64,000 nucleotides of DNA, taken from positions 1-64,000 of the forward strand of contig FPIT01000009.1 of the NCBI GenBank assembly GCA_900119285.1, written 5' to 3'. Numbering within the stretch: position 1 is the stretch's first letter; every line of letters begins with the position of its first letter. Below, piece by piece: positions 854 through 51,916 of the stretch. The translations under genes were made by a program, and so were the position numbers. Under the pieces are notes generated by a model. The model saw only the letters and a program-made list of their open reading frames with translations. It was not told where the DNA came from and did no database searches. Origin of the DNA: Prevotellaceae bacterium HUN156 (lineage in GTDB: Bacteria; Bacteroidota; Bacteroidia; Bacteroidales; Bacteroidaceae).

Positions 854-3800
854 TTAGATTCCTAAGCGGAGTGTGAAGGTGAACTGGCGAGCCATAGGAA
901 CGGCAACACCACCAGAGTTGAAGAACTCAGGATCCTGTCCGTTCAACTTCTTATCAGCATAGATAAGGAATGGGTTGGTAGCCTGCAGCTTCATGCTGAG
1001 GTTAGACAGTCCAAGATGACCAATCCAGCTCTTGGGGAAGTCGTAAGCAAGAGAAATCTCCTTCATGCGGATGAAGTCACCCTTGGCAATACGCTCTGTA
1101 GAGTAGTTGTATGCGCTATATGCATAGCTCAGCTTGTTGTCGTTCTGAATCTGACGGAGGTCAGCCATTGCAGGAACGTTAGTTCTCTGCTCGTCACCAG
1201 GTGCTACCCAACGGTTAGCAAATTCACGTGGCATAGCGGTGAGGTCACTGTAACTAACAGCGAATGAAGGATCGAGACGTACGACATTGCCATAAGCATA
1301 GGTAATGAAGACATTCAGATGCCAGTTCTTGTAACGGAAGGTGTTACCAATAGAACCTGTTACTGTAGGATCTGTAGGACCTTCGTAAACAAGGTGGCTG
1401 GTATCATAAGACTGGAAGTCGATATCACTAACAACGGTATTGCCCTCTTCGTTGATGAAGGTAGGAAGACCCTGTGAGTTCAGACCCTGGAAGTTCATAG
1501 AGAACAAAGAACGATAAGGATAACCCTTCTCTGTGAAACCAGAACCGGTAATCAGGTCGATAACACGGTTGCGTGATTCGAAGTCAGTTACCTCACAGTA
1601 AGTGTGAGAGTAAATCAAGTCGGTTGACCACTCGAAGTCCTTTGTAACAATGTTACGTGTAGACAGTGAGAACTCCTCACCGTGTGACTTCATGGATGCT
1701 ACGTTAGCATACTTCAGAATAGAACCGCCAACACCCGTTGTACGCTTAGGACCAATCAGGTCGAAGTTGTTACGAGTGTACCAGTCGAACTGGAAGTTGA
1801 TGCGGTTGTTCAGGAAACCGAGGTCAACACCAATGTTGAACTCATGCTTCTTCTCGTATGTCAGGTCAGGATTAGCGAACTGTGCAATCTCCAAACCAGA
1901 CTCCTTGTCCTCAGAATATACACGCCAAGGGTTGTAAGCACGGATGATAACCAAAGAGTTAGTTACTGCAGGCTTATCACCAGTCAGTGAGTAGCTGGCC
2001 TTCAGAGTAGCATGTGTAAGTGCGTTCTTGAAGGTCTTAGCAAACCAAGGCTCCTCGTGAGCGTTCCATGCTGTTGATACGTTCCATGTAGGCAACCAGC
2101 GAGCGCTTGTAGCACGTCCCAGACGGTTACTACCCTCATAACGAACAGTACCGTTGAGGATGTAGCGGTGCTTCCAAGAATAAGTGGCTGTACCGAAGAA
2201 TGAAACCTCACGGCTGTAGCCATTGTTCAATGCATAGTATATGCTGTTCTCCTCGCTTGCCTGCTTGAAGTAAGTATAGTCATAGCTGCCCAGCAGACCC
2301 ATGTCGTAGAGTACACCAACCTTGGTGTTAGAGGTCTGACCACGATCGATGCTGTTCAACTCAAGACCACCGTATGCATTAACGATGTGATCTTCGTTGA
2401 ATACGTCATTATAGCTTGCAGTAGCACGGAAGTCCCAGCTGTTCATCTTGTAAACGGTCTCACGCTGGAAACCACCGTCTGGCAATACGGTGTTAGGCAG
2501 AGAGTTAAGAACATCGGGGTCAGTATAGAGCCAAGGGTTAGCCTTACGCATGGTAGCATCGTCCATCATGCGGAATGCCATAGCCTGGTTACTGGTTTCC
2601 TTAATAAAGTGACTCTGTGTAGTGGTAGAGTACTTGTAAGCAGCAATAGCGCTCAACTCTACAGTACGTACAGGCTTGTACTTCAACTCACCCTGGAACT
2701 TCATGTCAACAACGTCAAGCTCCATGTAGTTGTTCTGCAACTCATGGTGAATGTTGAATGGAGCATAGTTACGAACATAGAACTCGTTAGCGTCCAATGT
2801 ACGTGAACTGTTGATAGCGTATGAATATGGGTTGATATCGAAATCACGACCTACAGTACCACTTACTACGTCAACGCTCTGGTTAGATGTACCAGGAGCT
2901 TCCTGCTTACGATAGCTGGTATTGCCAATGAAGTTCAATGACAGCTTCTTGTTCAGGTTGTAGTTAGCGTTGATGTTTGCGGTGTAACGCTCAACCTTGC
3001 TGCGCTCTGTCCATCCTGGATCGTTCATGATAGAGAATGAAGCGTAGTACTGAGCCTTGTCAGTACCAGAGCTCAATGATACAGAGTGATTCTGCTGGAT
3101 GCTGTTAGAGAACAACTCCTTGAACCAGTCAGTATTGCGGTATTCTGCCTCACGAAGGTAATTGTACATAGCCTCCTGAGTGTTATCCAGTTTGAAGCCT
3201 CCTGTAGCGGGATCGTATTCGTTCATCAGGTGGTACATCTTACCAAATACACCACTTGAGCTAGAACGATAACCACTCATGAACGACATGAAACCGTTGT
3301 TCAGCATCTCACGATAAACTGACATCTGCTCCTGAGAGTTCATGATGTTGAAGTCTGAGTAGTTGGGGCGAAGACGCATGGTGAACTCACCAGTATAGCT
3401 GATCTTTGAGGTACCAGCCTTACCACGCTTGGTGGTGACAACAATCACACCGGCCATCGCGCGCGCACCATATATAGATGTAGCAGAACCATCCTTCAGA
3501 ATCTGGAATGATTCAATATCATCTGCGTTCAATCCTGCAATAGCAGAAGAAATCAGAGTGGCAGCATCACCAGAAGATAACTGGTCTGCGTCAACCTCTG
3601 TTACATCTTCCATGATAACACCGTCAACAACCCACAGTGGCTTAGAGCTACCATAGATTGACGTTGCACCACGTACACGAATCTTTGGAGCTGTACCAAA
3701 GGTACCTGATACGTTCTGTACAGATACACCAGCAGCACGTCCCTCCAAAGAGCGTGAGATGTCAGCAATACCGTCAAGCTTAGCTTTCTCTGCATCAACC

Positions 3801-4159
3801 TTAGTTGTTGCACCAGTAAACAGACGCTTATCCTGCTTCATCATACCTACAGCAACAACTTCCTGCAATTGAGTAGCATCACCTTGAAGTGTTACTTTCA
3901 TGCCATTCTTGGCCTTTACAACTTGAGTAACCATACCGACATAGCTTATCTCAAGCTTCTTGCCCTCAGCCACGTTAAGGCTGAAGTTACCATCAAGGTC
4001 GGTCTTTGTTCCCTGTTTGGTGCCTTGAATCATTACGGTTGCACCAATACATGGTTCACCCGTGTCTTCAAAGACAGTACCCGTAATCTTCTGCTGTGCA
4101 TATACCATGCTTAAGCTTGCGAAGAGACAGGTAAGAAACATAGTCAGTCTTTTTTCCAT
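854..4159 (-). CDS. SusC/RagA family TonB-dependent outer-membrane transporter
   Basis: TonB-dependent barrel that imports ligands handed over by its SusD partner. I choose the start at 4159 (MEKRLTMFL) rather than 4171 because it gives a clean signal peptide cut after about residue 21 (VYA/QQ). A carboxypeptidase-regulatory-like domain follows (about residues 22-100, with GEPCIGATVMIQGT and GNFSL), then a plug with VVDGV and SATSIYGARAMAGVIVVTTK, then a long barrel ending in FTFTLRLGI. The 1101-residue length is normal for SusC. The TonB-box region reads LQEVVAVGMMKQ, slightly off the usual VVVGYG. No regulator for this pair lies in the window; the next genes upstream are the carB/carA group on the same strand with a terminator between. 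Confidence 0.95.
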   Translation of the reverse strand: MEKRLTMFLTCLFASLSMVYAQQKITGTVFEDTGEPCIGATVMIQGTKQGTKTDLDGNFSLNVAEGKKLEISYVGMVTQVVKAKNGMKVTLQGDATQLQEVVAVGMMKQDKRLFTGATTKVDAEKAKLDGIADISRSLEGRAAGVSVQNVSGTFGTAPKIRVRGATSIYGSSKPLWVVDGVIMEDVTEVDADQLSSGDAATLISSAIAGLNADDIESFQILKDGSATSIYGARAMAGVIVVTTKRGKAGTSKISYTGEFTMRLRPNYSDFNIMNSQEQMSVYREMLNNGFMSFMSGYRSSSSGVFGKMYHLMNEYDPATGGFKLDNTQEAMYNYLREAEYRNTDWFKELFSNSIQQNHSVSLSSGTDKAQYYASFSIMNDPGWTERSKVERYTANINANYNLNKKLSLNFIGNTSYRKQEAPGTSNQSVDVVSGTVGRDFDINPYSYAINSSRTLDANEFYVRNYAPFNIHHELQNNYMELDVVDMKFQGELKYKPVRTVELSAIAAYKYSTTTQSHFIKETSNQAMAFRMMDDATMRKANPWLYTDPDVLNSLPNTVLPDGGFQRETVYKMNSWDFRATASYNDVFNEDHIVNAYGGLELNSIDRGQTSNTKVGVLYDMGLLGSYDYTYFKQASEENSIYYALNNGYSREVSFFGTATYSWKHRYILNGTVRYEGSNRLGRATSARWLPTWNVSTAWNAHEEPWFAKTFKNALTHATLKASYSLTGDKPAVTNSLVIIRAYNPWRVYSEDKESGLEIAQFANPDLTYEKKHEFNIGVDLGFLNNRINFQFDWYTRNNFDLIGPKRTTGVGGSILKYANVASMKSHGEEFSLSTRNIVTKDFEWSTDLIYSHTYCEVTDFESRNRVIDLITGSGFTEKGYPYRSLFSMNFQGLNSQGLPTFINEEGNTVVSDIDFQSYDTSHLVYEGPTDPTVTGSIGNTFRYKNWHLNVFITYAYGNVVRLDPSFAVSYSDLTAMPREFANRWVAPGDEQRTNVPAMADLRQIQNDNKLSYAYSAYNYSTERIAKGDFIRMKEISLAYDFPKSWIGHLGLSNLSMKLQATNPFLIYADKKLNGQDPEFFNSGGVAVPMARQFTFTLRLGI

Positions 4160-4302
4160 AAAATCTCTCAATCTCTTTATTATTTTGTTTTTAATTTTTC
4201 GTTTGTGGATTAATTTTTAGTGCGTTCCCAATATGCTAAGCTTGTAAACAATCTTCTTTCCCATTAATTGGCGTATTGACGCAAAACTAAATTTCCAAGG
4301 TG

Positions 4303-4334
4303 CAAAAGTAACACTTTTTATGTAAACAAACAAA
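4303..4334 (-). promoter_or_regulatory. Bacteroidetes-type promoter for the susC/susD pair
   Basis: On the minus strand TTTG (4334-4331) is followed after 20 bp by TACTTTTG (4310-4303), a match to TTTG-N19-22-TAnnTTTG. The start would lie near 4295, leaving a leader of about 135 nt before the ATG. A second weaker match, TAGTTTTG, lies at 4289-4282. Confidence 0.55.
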
Positions 4335-4466
4335 TAAAATTACATAAAAGATACATTTTGGCTCTCTTTTTTAACTTTTAAGCCTCTTTTCGTTACAATC
4401 TGTTTCTTTTTGTGTCTTTTAAAAGCGTAAATCTGTACGAATTGTGAATGTATATGCAAAAATGAA

Positions 4467-4495
4467 GATGGGCACCCCATAGTGAATGCCCATCT
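4467..4495 (-). terminator. Terminator after the carA/carB operon
   Basis: An 8-bp stem, GATGGGCA paired with TGCCCATC, with a 12-nt loop, followed on the minus strand by TTCATTTTTG. It lies about 10 bp past the carB stop. Confidence 0.65.
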
Positions 4496-4504
4496 TTGTT
4501 TCAT

Positions 4505-6202
4505 TTACAGGTATGACATGTATAGGTAGTTGGTCTGAGCCGGATATTCGGCAGCCAACGTATCTATCTGGTTGACAATGGGTACAAGCCCAAGTGCCTT
4601 GCGCCACTTGCGAATGGTGAGACCAGCCTCCTCCATGTTCATTCGTTCTTCCAAGCCTACAGCACGACCAATCTGGAAATCAGAGAAACCATAGACCTTG
4701 GCATCATGCAGCAGTTCGGCTACCTCTGGGGTTTCGAGAATTTCCATAAACTCGCTTTCGTCCATATATTCTGATACTTCTGCGAAATATCTGTTCTCTT
4801 GCAGACGCAGGTCGATGTCAACCAAATGCTTCAACTTCTGCAGGAACCAGCGGTCAATCTTCGTGAGTTCATGAATCTGATCTACACTGTAACCAATCTG
4901 CAGTGCTTTGGCAAGCACGAAGATGCGCATATCGGTAGGCTCGTGTAATGATTTAGTGATGTCGGTAATCTTAATTTCGTGGTTTTCTACGAAACCATGC
5001 ATGCCTTGTCCAATCATACGCAGACCTTTTTGAAGTGCTTCTTCAAAGGTGCGTCCTACTGCCATCACCTCGCCAACACTCTTCATGGCTGAGCCGAGTT
5101 CGCGCTTTACACCATGGAACTTGGTGAGGTCCCAGCGTGGAATCTTGACTACAACATAGTCAAGAGCGGGCTCGAAGAATGCCGAGGTTGTCTTAGTTAC
5201 AGAGTTTTTCAAGTCGAAGAGGCCATAACCCAGTCCGAGCTTGGCTGCAACAAATGCCAAAGGATAACCAGTGGCTTTAGACGCCAATGCTGATGAACGG
5301 CTGAGTCGGGCATTAACCTCAATAACTCGATAGTCTTCTGACTGTGGGTCAAGGGCATATTGTACGTTACACTCACCAACGATGCCGATATGGCGGATAA
5401 TCTTAATGGCGAGTGCGCGCAACTTGTGATACTCTGCATTGCTAAGTGTCTGAGAAGGAGCTACTACAATTGACTCACCCGTATGGATGCCGAGTGGGTC
5501 GAAGTTTTCCATATTACATACGGTGATACAGTTATCGAAACGGTCGCGTACTACTTCATACTCTATCTCTTTCCAACCCTTCAAACTCTTTTCAACCAAT
5601 ACCTGTGGTGAGAAGGAGAAGGCTTCCTCTGCTTGTGTCAGCAGTTGTTCTTCATTGTCGCAGAAACCAGAACCCAGACCTCCCAGTGCATAGGCGGCAC
5701 GGAGAATGACAGGGAATCCTAATGCCTTGGCTGCCTTCTGTACCTCTTCTACAGTGCTGCAAGCCTCACTCTTGATGGTCTTTACGCCAATTTCGTCGAG
5801 GCGCTTAACAAAGAGGTCACGGTCTTCAGTGTCAATGATGGCCTGTACTGGAGTACCCAATACTTTAACGCCATATTTCTCTAAGACTCCGCTTTGATAG
5901 AGTTCAACACCGCAGTTGAGTGCGGTCTGTCCACCAAAGCTAAGCAGGATGCCATCAGGGCGCTCTTTTTCAATGATGCGCTCTACAAATTCTGGTTTAA
6001 CGGGTTGGAAATATACCTTGTCGGCAACACCCTGTGATGTTTGTACAGTTGCAATGTTTGGATTGATAAGGATACTCTCAACACCTTCCTCCTTCAATGC
6101 CTTCAGTGCCTGTGCACCGCTATAGTCAAACTCACCAGCCTGACCAATCTTTAATGCACCGCTACCCAGCAGTAATACCTTCTTTATATTCTGATCTGTC
6201 AT
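4505..6202 (-). CDS. carB: Carbamoyl-phosphate synthase large subunit, N-terminal half only
   Basis: Homologous to the first half of CarB: the pre-ATP-grasp and ATP-grasp domain that makes carboxyphosphate and carbamate (about residues 1-400, with [21 protein letters not shown] and [20 protein letters not shown]), then the helical oligomerisation domain (about 400-550). It stops after NYLYMSYL, near the normal boundary between the two synthetase halves, at 565 residues instead of about 1070. The second ATP-grasp domain and the MGS-like allosteric domain are absent and not found downstream. Start 6202 lies 1 bp past the carA stop; an in-frame ATG at 6217 would overlap carA. It could be half of a split enzyme, a self-associating half-synthetase or a truncated copy; the intact reading frame argues against fresh decay. 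Confidence 0.9.
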
Positions 6203-49349: not shown

Positions 49350-49380
49350 AAGAGATAAAGATAGAAAAATATTATTCACG

Positions 49381-49421
49381 TTCACGCCTAACGCTCAGAG
49401 TTACTGTCCGTTAGGCGTGAA
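49381..49421. repeat. 41-bp imperfect palindrome, left end of the VapE/HU cassette
   Basis: TTCACGCCTAACG pairs with CGTTAGGCGTGAA around a 15-nt loop. It contains the stop of the VapE-like gene (49388-49390) and is followed by T-rich DNA, so it can end transcription from both sides. A 41-bp relative with 35 matching positions, including parts of the loop, is at 51856-51896 in direct orientation. Confidence 0.8.
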
Positions 49422-50635
49422 TATTGTTTTTGCAGTCTGACCAGGCGATAGGCGTTGCCTCGACGAGTGTGGCGAGGTGTGAGTCCTAAATCCACTAGGC
49501 GATGGCCAAAGGTGATAGGAGTCAGGTTGCGCACAGCGTGATGGTCGTAGTTATCCAACTTTCGGAGCAAGTCCTCAGTAGTAATCAGCTCGCCCTCTTT
49601 GTTGTTGCGTGCTTGGCGGAAGAAGGTAGTAAAGAGTGTCTCCAACTCATCTTTAACGTAGTAGCGCTGATTGCGACGCTGTATTTCGCGCTCCTGAGCC
49701 TTTGTGTAATACGTTGGCAGTCCAGCCTCCACCTCATGAATCATCTGCGCATAAAGCTGCACATAGTCAATACCACCCGTGCGAATCATCTCTTTAGGTT
49801 CTAAAATCAGAAAGCGACGAGAGCCAGAGCGGTCGTAGAGCAACTGGCGTGAATTACTGGTGCCCACGAATGAGGCGATGCGAGGCAGACGATTGAAATT
49901 CTTCTTGTAGGCCCCGATAAACGAGGGTTTCATGGTCTGCATCAGCGTCTTTAGCTCTGGTAGCTTCTTTGGATTCTCCTTGTCGAACTCATCGATGTTG
50001 ACAATGGCAAACTCCACGAGTTTTCGCTGAGCATTACCTTTGGCACAGAGCGAGAAATCGTCTGTATAGTAGTCGCGCAACTCAGGTGGCAAGAGCTCAC
50101 GAACAAAGGTGCTCTTGTGCATTCCTTGTTGCTGACTCACCAATAGCATCATCACCGCATTGGCATGTTTGGTGTCGTAGCCAAGCCACTGGCTGACCAC
50201 TGCACGCAACCAGATGCGTCCCATGTCACGACAATAATGATAGGGCGATATGCGCCCAAACAAATCAGCTGTTCTGTCCACTCCGTCCCATTTGCCACGT
50301 ACAGACTCAAGCCATTGACGCACAGGATGATAGTCTTTGGCAAAGTCAGAGCGCAGCCAGTGCTTGATGCGACTGTCGAGGCAGAAAATATTGGCATCCT
50401 CAACGCCACAGGCGATGGTGTTAAAGCCTCGTTCATCCAGTGGTCTCCATGCCTCGTCACTATTCTTGTGGCGAAATTCATAGACATCGGTAATTACATT
50501 ATGGCGCACATCATAAGTGTCTGCCACATACTGTTTCATCTCACGAATAGGCATCAGCATCAGCTGCTTGCGATGCTCGTAGCCTTGAATCATCTTGTCT
50601 TTATCTTCCATATCTTTTTTATTTATGTTTCGCAT
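49388..50635 (-). CDS. VapE/VirE-like P-loop ATPase (DUF3874-type)
   Basis: A 415-residue protein of the virulence-associated-E kind: predicted ATPase related to superfamily 3 helicase/primase proteins of phages and islands. Visible parts: an N-terminal domain (ITDVYEFRHKNSDEAWRPLD), VRGKWDGVDR, the ATP-binding loop LVSQQQGMHKSTFVREL (Lys174) and Walker B VEFAIVNIDEFDK, then IASFVGTSNSRQLLYDRSGSRRFL, and a C-terminal winged-helix-like part (LTPITFGHRLVDLGL). The P-loop has Met-His where Gly is common. Alternative start at 50611. Expressed behind a structured leader; divergent from the HU-like gene. No integrase nearby. Confidence 0.85.
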   Translation of the reverse strand: MRNINKKDMEDKDKMIQGYEHRKQLMLMPIREMKQYVADTYDVRHNVITDVYEFRHKNSDEAWRPLDERGFNTIACGVEDANIFCLDSRIKHWLRSDFAKDYHPVRQWLESVRGKWDGVDRTADLFGRISPYHYCRDMGRIWLRAVVSQWLGYDTKHANAVMMLLVSQQQGMHKSTFVRELLPPELRDYYTDDFSLCAKGNAQRKLVEFAIVNIDEFDKENPKKLPELKTLMQTMKPSFIGAYKKNFNRLPRIASFVGTSNSRQLLYDRSGSRRFLILEPKEMIRTGGIDYVQLYAQMIHEVEAGLPTYYTKAQEREIQRRNQRYYVKDELETLFTTFFRQARNNKEGELITTEDLLRKLDNYDHHAVRNLTPITFGHRLVDLGLTPRHTRRGNAYRLVRLQKQYSRLTDSNSER

Positions 50636-50654
50636 GCTCTGCTTGTTTGGTAGT

Positions 50655-50759
50655 TAACGGGAGTTAGCGGTAGTTAACGAGCCGTTGGCTCGTGGAGTTA
50701 ACGGACGAGTGTTCTGCGGCAGTACTATTGTCCGTTAACTCCACAGGCTGAAAGCCTGT
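50655..50759 (-). repeat. Three nested hairpins in the VapE leader
   Basis: Three perfect inverted repeats in 83 bp: ACGAGCC/GGCTCGT (50677-50683, 50687-50693, 3-nt loop), GGAGTTAACGGAC/GTCCGTTAACTCC (50694-50706, 50730-50742, 13 bp) and ACAGGCT/AGCCTGT (50743-50749, 50753-50759, 3-nt loop). They abut each other and would lie in the mRNA leader of the VapE-like gene. Confidence 0.75.
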
Positions 50760-50825
50760 TAACTCCCCATAACTCCCCATAACTCCCCATAACTCCTAAT
50801 AACTCCCAATATCTCCCAATATCCT
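50760..50825 (-). repeat. Decamer tandem repeat in the VapE leader
   Basis: Plus strand: AACTCCCCAT three times, then the variants AACTCCTAAT, AACTCCCAAT and ATCTCCCAAT, each 10 bp. In the mRNA sense these read as repeated ATGGGGAGTT words, and the AGTTA parts can pair with TAACT in the hairpins downstream. Confidence 0.85.
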
Positions 50826-50877
50826 TAAATCAAAATGAATGTTAATTTTTGATTGTCTTTTGCTCGTAAAAGCGATG

Positions 50878-50885
50878 CAAAGGTA
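50878..50885 (-). promoter_or_regulatory. Promoter of the VapE-like gene
   Basis: TACCTTTG followed by CATC on the minus strand. The start would be near 50871, giving a leader of about 235 nt that includes the decamers and hairpins. Confidence 0.6.
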
Positions 50886-50970
50886 GGCAAATTTTATCCC
50901 AATTCCAAGCGTTTTTACAGAATAAGAGCCTTATTTTCAGCAAGTTCCAGATATGTATAAGTGGTCGTCC

Positions 50971-51007
50971 AAGATAGCTATAGTTGTCTTCCGATAGTTG
51001 CTATCTT
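50971..51007. repeat. GATAG/CTATC palindromes upstream of the iterons
   Basis: AAGATAGC (50971-50978) and GCTATCTT (51000-51007) are inverted copies; inside, GATAG-TTG-CTATC (50993-51005) is a tight palindrome. The same palindrome with one more base recurs at 51101-51114 over the HU promoter. Confidence 0.7.
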
Positions 51008-51014
51008 GTAACTT

Positions 51015-51080
51015 GCGACGGCCGTCAAAAATATCTGCGACGGCCGTCGCGGATATTTGCGACAGCCATCGCATCATTTA
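51015..51080. repeat. Three 22-bp iterons with palindromic GC-rich core
   Basis: Units begin at 51015, 51037 and 51059, exactly 22 bp apart. The core is GCGACGGCCGTCGC (complete at 51037), GCGACGGCCGTC in unit 1 and GCGACAGCCATCGC in unit 3; the spacers are AT-rich. Repetition every two helical turns places all cores on one face of the DNA. Confidence 0.85.
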
Positions 51081-51100
51081 GGATAGCACAAAACAGCGGT

Positions 51101-51136
51101 GATAGTTGGCTATCTGGGATTTTTTCACTACCTTTG
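51101..51136 (+). promoter_or_regulatory. HU-like gene promoter with overlapping palindrome
   Basis: TTG (51106-51108), 20 bp, then TACCTTTG (51129-51136). The palindrome GATAG-TTGG-CTATC (51101-51114) covers the -33 element, so a protein binding it would block or control the promoter. Confidence 0.65.
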
Positions 51137-51178
51137 TAGTTGCTTTAGATAACCCAAGATAAAACCATTAGAAAACAA

Positions 51179-51835
51179 ATGAAAAAAGAAAACGCTATTC
51201 TCTACGATGTATTCGCTACGCCTAATCCAGACGAAGCGCGTGATCAATTGTACTATCCTCGTGCCGTAACCTATGGAGCACAGATGAATGAAGACGAACT
51301 GAAGGAATGCCTTGAACACAACACACGCGTCAATTCATCACAGTTTGTGAGTGTAATGGATGCTTTAAAACAGGAAATTCCCCAGCAATTACTGATGAAC
51401 AAAAGCGTTCATATACAAGGTATGGGTACCTTCTATCTGAAGATTGGTGTCCGTCGTCGTAAGACAAGAGACGGTAAGTATTATACTCAGAAGTTTACTG
51501 ACCCAAATGCCATCACAGCTCGCGACCTATGCGTTGAAGGTATCGGATTTCGTGCTGATCCCACATGGAGTCGCATAGTCATGAAGCCTAAACAGCCTTT
51601 CGAACGCGCCCAGACACGCCATCAGACACCCGTTAGCAAGAGTAAGCTACTGCAATATATTGACCAGGTGGTTAAGGAAAAGGGCTTTGTTACTGTTCGT
51701 GAAGTGGAATGCGAACTCGATACCACCAACTATCATGCTCGCAAACTACTGGAAGGACTCTGTTCAGGCGAGCAACCTAAACTGTATAGGGAAAAGGTAG
51801 GACACGCTTTCGTCTACAAGCGCTTTGGCAAGTAA
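51179..51835 (+). CDS. HU-like DNA-binding protein with extra C-terminal domain
   Basis: A 218-residue protein. About residues 1-125 form an HU/IHF-like domain of the Bacteroidetes type (VNSSQFVSVMDALKQEIPQQLL, GMGTFYLKIGVRRRKTRDG, NAITARDLCVEGIGFRAD). A linker (RAQTRHQTPVSKS) leads to a C-terminal 70-residue domain (LLQYIDQVVKEKGFVTVREV, then YHARKLLEGL and HAFVYKRFG) that looks like a winged helix. Ordinary HU has only about 90 residues. It is divergent from the VapE-like gene and preceded by the iteron and palindrome region, a natural target for its own binding. It ends at the right palindrome. Confidence 0.85.
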   Translation: MKKENAILYDVFATPNPDEARDQLYYPRAVTYGAQMNEDELKECLEHNTRVNSSQFVSVMDALKQEIPQQLLMNKSVHIQGMGTFYLKIGVRRRKTRDGKYYTQKFTDPNAITARDLCVEGIGFRADPTWSRIVMKPKQPFERAQTRHQTPVSKSKLLQYIDQVVKEKGFVTVREVECELDTTNYHARKLLEGLCSGEQPKLYREKVGHAFVYKRFGK

Positions 51836-51855
51836 ATGATGACCTGAAAATAATA

Positions 51856-51896
51856 TTCACGCCTAACACTCAGAAATACTGATTGTTAGGCGTGAA
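51856..51896. repeat. 41-bp imperfect palindrome, right end of the VapE/HU cassette
   Basis: TTCACGCCTAACA pairs with TGTTAGGCGTGAA. It has 35 of 41 positions in common with 49381-49421 in the same orientation. It lies between the convergent HU-like and HTCS genes and may also work as a bidirectional terminator. Confidence 0.8.
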
Positions 51897-51916
51897 TGTG
51901 AAGTTTATTTTCTTGC

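Follow-up and report, generated by a model that had tools for sequence, protein, structure and literature searches.

The DNA analysed here, which we call the window, is a stretch of 64,000 nucleotides from Prevotellaceae bacterium HUN156 (contig FPIT01000009.1), in which a 2.5-kb unit (positions 49365-51912) comprises a hairpin, a vapE gene, a repeat array between divergent promoters, an HU-HIG gene and an inverted hairpin, with the array in the central position. The vapE gene (49388-50635, minus strand) encodes a VapE-like domain (PF05272, E = 2e-28) and DUF3874 (PF12990, E = 7.6e-15), and its open reading frame continues into the left hairpin. The HU-HIG gene (51179-51835, plus strand) encodes a protein of 218 amino acids with an HU domain (PF18291, E = 1.3e-12) and a C-terminal helix-strand-helix-strand-strand part that, according to a low-confidence model, may be winged-helix-like. 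Both proteins score above the curated cut-offs of their families, with 99.8 bits against 25 for VapE-like and 48.3 bits against 26.2 for HU-HIG, so that the right-hand gene belongs with the known HU-HIG proteins; VapE additionally matches phage helicase/primase families. Scans with Pfam, NCBIfam and PHROGs recognised no transposase, integrase, relaxase or nuclease in the unit. No fold could be assigned from the structure models, whose confidence was low (pLDDT 63.7 for HU-HIG and 52.7 for VapE), Foldseek searches with them listed HU folds, none of which matched at E 0.001, and no solved relative was found by sequence. To our knowledge, HU-HIG and VapE genes are common in gut Bacteroidales and have no assigned function. 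In the Walker A region, the window VapE reads QQQGMHKST where HUN156 paralogs read GAQGCGKTT, and in an alignment of 12 VapE proteins KST is invariant and preceded by H in 10 and by N in 2. Two other HUN156 matches to HU-HIG (C9:99323-99619 and C19:134427-134726) are interrupted by a stop codon and appear degenerate.

The array itself (51014-51073) consists of three 16-bp palindromes (51014-51029, 51036-51051 and 51058-51073), the repeat unit being one palindrome and then a 6-bp A/T-rich spacer. The first bases of its cores are 51015 (GCGACGGCCGTC), 51037 (GCGACGGCCGTCGC) and 51059 (GCGACAGCCATCGC), which confirms the description in the first-pass annotation of three GC-rich palindromic cores exactly 22 bp apart. 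A pattern of two cores at this spacing, with up to 3 mismatches allowed, matched both strands of the 64-kb window 4 times, always inside the array, and 0 times in 100 shuffles of the window. The same annotation had considered two-turn spacing typical of cooperative-binding sites and had placed the cores between two divergent promoters, and the analysis supports it on both points: -7-like boxes TACCTTTG, detected with TAnnTTTG, which we take to be the -7 consensus, lie on either side of the array at 50878-50885 (minus strand, vapE) and 51129-51136 (plus strand, HU-HIG gene). Sequence comparison also delimited a block within the vapE promoter region (50827-50846, minus strand) that is conserved and retained in several of the gene-less copies described below. 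Imperfect 10-bp repeats TAACTCCCCA occupy positions 50760-50829 in the vapE leader.

The array had been taken as single, and this view has to be revised. A search of the HUN156 genome (2.8 Mb in 19 contigs) with the 12-bp core pattern gave 23 matches, compared with 1 for the reversed control, and these fall in nine places, namely eight three-unit arrays and one lone match inside a reading frame. A profile (R2) built from the eight arrays found exactly those eight, a result that, given its origin, means no more than that a ninth did not turn up. When the copies were aligned, the conserved sequence extended far beyond the array. Among 100 genomes of the genus, the exact two-unit pattern matched HUN156 alone; this pattern was too strict, as R2 later matched 17 of 249 genomes, six of them strongly (HUN156 included) and the rest weakly with changed palindromes.

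A search of the genome collection with VapE returned 11 loci (Prevotella, Prevotellaceae or Bacteroidales). Nine have a VapE identical at 75% or more, and each of these also has an HU-HIG gene in divergent orientation (58-78% identical) with an array in between, so that related repeats do stand upstream of other VapE/HU pairs, as the first-pass annotation had proposed to check; both hairpins are present in 8 of these 9 loci, and the remaining one (L150) has a single weak hairpin. At the two loci with VapE of 44-46% identity, the same search found no HU-HIG gene, array or hairpins, and one of them (L151) has, upstream of vapE, a 22-bp array with a different sequence. The window and its nine close relatives thus provide 10 units for comparison, and all 10 arrays have three repeats at exactly 22 bp. 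The vapE box stands at 288-299 of the intergenic region in 10/10 units and the HU-HIG box 42-46 bases from its HU-HIG end in 9/10, with none seen in L150, while the distance from the first core to the HU-HIG -7 box is 66-67 bp in all eight units of the 10 in which both could be read.

These regularities bear on the possibility that the array is a functionless minisatellite, one of many 22-bp repeats of the genome, carried in MITE-like elements. A HUN156 sample of 464 kb (48 kb noncoding) had 22 as its leading period, found in 11 of 19 noncoding arrays at a 30/44 threshold, and BrickBuilt MITEs of Porphyromonas gingivalis contain 23-nt repeats (PMC4596501). The period-22 noncoding repeats of HUN156 (L217-L236 and the window) have many unrelated units, CAATAACTATTG, AAGTGGCACTATT, GAGTACGGAGGCTA and others, and look like a class of 22-bp minisatellites. 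Since the window array belongs to this large genomic class, its period by itself is no proof of function. A mixed control of 56 intergenic regions yielded 13 with a period at p <= 0.01, which was 21 in two cases and 22 in the other 11; the latter comprised six HU-HIG/vapE regions, two vapE regions, one copy of the window array and two others. Because 22-bp arrays built of other units are found away from both genes, and also before HUN156 vapE genes that have no adjoining HU-HIG gene (L087, L088, L090), the period is not specific to the HU-HIG/vapE pair. Copy number should nevertheless vary among drifting repeats, and exactly three units are found in every one of the 10 elements; the fixed promoter distance, the palindromicity and the different palindromes that other lineages have in this position argue in the same direction, and we therefore hold a functionless repeat to be quite improbable.

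The other lineages were surveyed in 301 genomes of the family, 138 of which have a VapE match; 30 loci were tested together with two records of Bacteroides finegoldii, in which palindromes of 22-bp period and other sequence separate divergent HU and VapE genes. A divergent HU-HIG gene was detected at 12 of the tested loci, and 22 was the best period in the range 15-33 at 11 of them, each with p = 0.005, the floor attainable with 200 shuffles. These 11 of 12, which carry over to the wider family the expectation of related repeats upstream of VapE/HU pairs, stand for about six lineages, as L186/L187/L188, L189/L190, L197/L198 and L199/L203 are close groups (L186 and L187 being nearly identical). 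The other locus with HU-HIG (L205) has a best period of 28 in low-complexity sequence. Among the 20 vapE loci without a divergent HU-HIG gene detectable by BLAST, the only method applied to them, 4 have a best period of 22 at p <= 0.01 (L193, L195, L204 and L206). Of 14 arrays tested, 11 are palindromic at p <= 0.05, the exceptions being L190, L199 and L203, and the palindromes differ between lineages, with TTATCA..TGATAA in L186 and ATCACT..AGTGAT in L199. Judged by eye, loci whose HU-HIG proteins are at least 82% identical have a palindrome in common, while those at 51% or less have different ones, as does one pair at 69%; VapE remains 47-68% identical between loci with different arrays. Other gut bacteria thus appear to keep one spacing and lineage-specific palindromes before related gene pairs, and this combination of an equal 22-base spacing with changing palindromes suggests that the array is probably a docking site for the adjoining HU-like protein.

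The first-pass annotation had left the choice between the HU-like protein, the VapE-like protein and a role as initiation site. When the 10 close units are compared, distances between arrays track those between HU-HIG proteins (r = 0.40, permutation p = 0.019; 0.63 and p = 0.015 once VapE is accounted for) and not those between VapE proteins (r = -0.18), a correlation that depends largely on one divergent pair, L144/L145. Within HUN156, two vapE paralogs identical at 384 of 402 positions have unrelated 22-bp arrays upstream (L087:5196-5492 and L090:4402-4488), the array of a third vapE is different again (GAAAAC..GTTTTC), and at L090 the window-type array and promoter block precede a distantly related second vapE. 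VapE was accordingly set aside as first choice for the protein that reads the array, whose sequence does not follow it, and HU-HIG is favoured as the likely ligand.

The same observations count against an iteron-type origin at which VapE would replicate the unit in a satellite-like or circular form, and with it against the proposed initiation site, for which no support was found. Iteron origins of plasmids and satellites combine two-turn spacing with a neighbouring helicase gene, and the window array resembles them in both respects and differs in following HU-HIG rather than the helicase. The relation of VapE to phage helicase/primase families, the iteron-like period and palindromes, the arrays upstream of vapE genes even where HU-HIG is lacking, and the retention of an array by gene-less copies all speak for such an origin, whereas the unit lacks any recognised integrase, relaxase or nuclease, no relative of the window VapE was found in the viral_contigs collection, and every VapE match in the phage and plasmid collections is less than 60% identical. 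We regard an origin as unlikely, and, on these last two results, derivation of the unit from a phage or plasmid was rejected as well.

The hairpins that bound the unit (left, 49365-49432, plus strand, outer side leftward; right, 51845-51912, minus strand, outer side rightward) have the form TTCAC-N-TTCAC..TAAC-loop-GTTA..GTGAA on both flanks of the window genes. A strict version of this pattern occurs at three sites in the genome, two of which are the ends of the window unit. A model (R1) made from ten ends matched the left and right hairpins with 79.5 and 78.3 bits, respectively, scores to be read knowing that both contributed to R1, and it found about two dozen sites in HUN156, of which the paired ones mostly face each other, two pairs point in the same direction and several are single. 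Left and right ends are more alike within elements (0.76) than between elements (0.65; p = 5e-5, n = 17 elements). In the pairing of 34 ends, 73 cells are changed on both sides, against a shuffle mean of 33, none of 500 shuffles reaching 73 and structures slid along the ends giving 16-29, and a 6-nt bulge on the outer strand, with TCAC repeated, is found in 34/34, counts that lean towards the structure because these ends were selected as model or profile matches. Integron attC stems have the boxes RYYYAAC and GTTRRRY, and both boxes are present in 20 of the 34 ends. Judged by eye, there is no clear target-site duplication outside the listed ends, and the unit's exact point of insertion could not be located. 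At another locus (L086:4709-5694), the last bases of a peptidyl-prolyl isomerase gene and the hairpin are duplicated directly around a frame of 161 amino acids, which resembles cassette-like entry at a gene end.

In the window and 7 of the 9 close relatives (8/10 units), a hybrid two-component kinase gene and upp flank the unit, with VapE towards upp in the window, L143, L144, L148 and L149 and HU-HIG towards upp in L142, L145 and L147; L146 and L150 have no flanking gene in common with the other loci. In a survey of 30 upp loci from 249 genomes, two show the kinase/upp site in other states, as L155 has HU-HIG and the array and lacks vapE, and in L159 kinase and upp adjoin and the unit is absent; 26 are without kinase or unit within 1.5 kb. 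For eight loci at this one site, trees of VapE plus HU-HIG and of upp plus kinase are incompatible in both directions (AU test, p = 9e-9 and 1.4e-10), and L144 and L147, with upp 100% and kinase 92% identical, have HU-HIG proteins of only 64% identity and units in opposite orientations.

Copies without genes are dispersed over the HUN156 genome. Both inverted ends enclose a window-type array at C8:228k, C14:217k and C17:129k and other repeats at C12:348k, C8:191k and C5:32k, so that short gene-less copies with both inverted ends occupy several sites, as in MITEs. One copy, beside menB, has no array or hairpin counterpart at 10/10 menB loci of relatives, menC being present in the same stretch in 7 of the 10. 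In a gene-less copy from another genome (G105), 20 residues of the HU-HIG 3' end survive ahead of the right hairpin with 80% identity, from which we conclude that at least this copy derives from the coding form; together with the unit that lacks vapE, it shows the deletion from a coding parent that is expected of a MITE. On these comparisons, the unit appears to be mobile and to move between rumen Prevotella genomes. Homologous exchange or inversion across the hairpins could account for part of the orientation and tree evidence, and not for the dispersed copies.

A more conservative reading takes the terminal hairpins as ordinary bidirectional terminators and the unit as a fixed locus that only inverts. 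The A-tracts and T-tracts of the hairpins fit it, as does the common site of most units; yet the nearest outer-side neighbour is the 5' end of a gene for 14 of 27 HUN156 hairpins, so that plain termination was rejected as the whole story, and the ends match within an element beyond chance. The two units found elsewhere, the gene-less copies with both ends and the conflicting trees are equally hard to reconcile with a fixed locus, and we judge this reading very doubtful.

Among published elements, the unit would be closest in kind to BrickBuilt MITEs, the nearest of those found, and to REPINs. BrickBuilt elements are geneless, with 19 copies, 23-nt tandem repeats in 1 to 22.8 copies and 12-bp IS5-like ends (PMC4596501). 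Like them, the elements studied here are intergenic, of moderate copy number (19 against eight arrays) and found in Bacteroidales, with short-period repeats within inverted ends; unlike them, the present elements contain precisely three palindromes set apart by spacers, end in long hairpins with a bulge and also occur in a form that codes for VapE and HU-HIG, and their palindromes at 22-bp spacing and their ends differ from the 23-nt tandem repeat and GAGACC-type 12-bp ends that define BrickBuilt (PMC4596501). With REPINs and the REP/TnpA-REP (RAYT) system (PMC3116915, PMC8266576), the unit shares pairs of inverted bulged hairpins, here with the 6-nt bulge and covariation above all shuffles, extragenic dispersal and presumed movement in trans, and it differs in that the ends enclose a long internal sequence with genes and that no RAYT is present. 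The HUN156 genome has two Y1_Tnp matches, neither with such a hairpin within 1.5 kb, and a RAYT was therefore rejected as the mover. In L145, a frame that by eye resembles a REP-associated tyrosine transposase (3600-4540), with its own palindromes GGACTCAGGGGGACAGACCCCCTGAGTCC, adjoins a terminal hairpin. The literature searched on HU-HIG, VapE, Prevotella MITEs and invertible segments, in which subscription journals were mostly not covered, yielded no earlier description of the unit, nor did the sources seen describe HU-HIG paired with a lineage-specific 22-bp palindrome array.

Taken together, we consider it probable that the array is a dimer-type operator or assembly array, most likely with the adjacent HU-HIG protein as its ligand, within a 2.5-kb mobile unit. 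HU-HIG would contact the array on a single face of the double helix, once per two turns, and would thereby control, and perhaps bend, the divergent HU-HIG/vapE promoter region. The unit would move as an element bounded by inverted bulged hairpins, and internal-deletion copies that keep hairpins and array and have lost the genes lie scattered over the genome. The sequences themselves show the architecture and its conservation, the fixed distances to the promoters, the dispersal, the deletion derivatives, the conflict between trees and, in the family genomes sampled, a 22-bp rule at HU-HIG/vapE pairs; binding by HU-HIG, regulation and any role of the array in movement are inferred from them. This goes beyond the first-pass annotation, which saw neither the terminal hairpins that bound the unit nor its apparent mobility and gene-less copies elsewhere in the genome. 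As a long shot, the unit might represent a family of hairpin-ended mobile elements that lack any recognisable transposase; HU-HIG would read the lineage-specific array as an identity tag and the VapE helicase would help to copy or extrude the ends, the palindrome changing while the spacing is kept.

Conserved spacing combined with changing palindromes would make the array a testable partner site, and the related loci would offer natural matched pairs of protein and array for the study of specificity. The hairpin-ended unit is a possible mobile element without a recognised transposase, and its gene-less copies may bring promoters and operators to other genes, as the vapE gene of L090 may illustrate.
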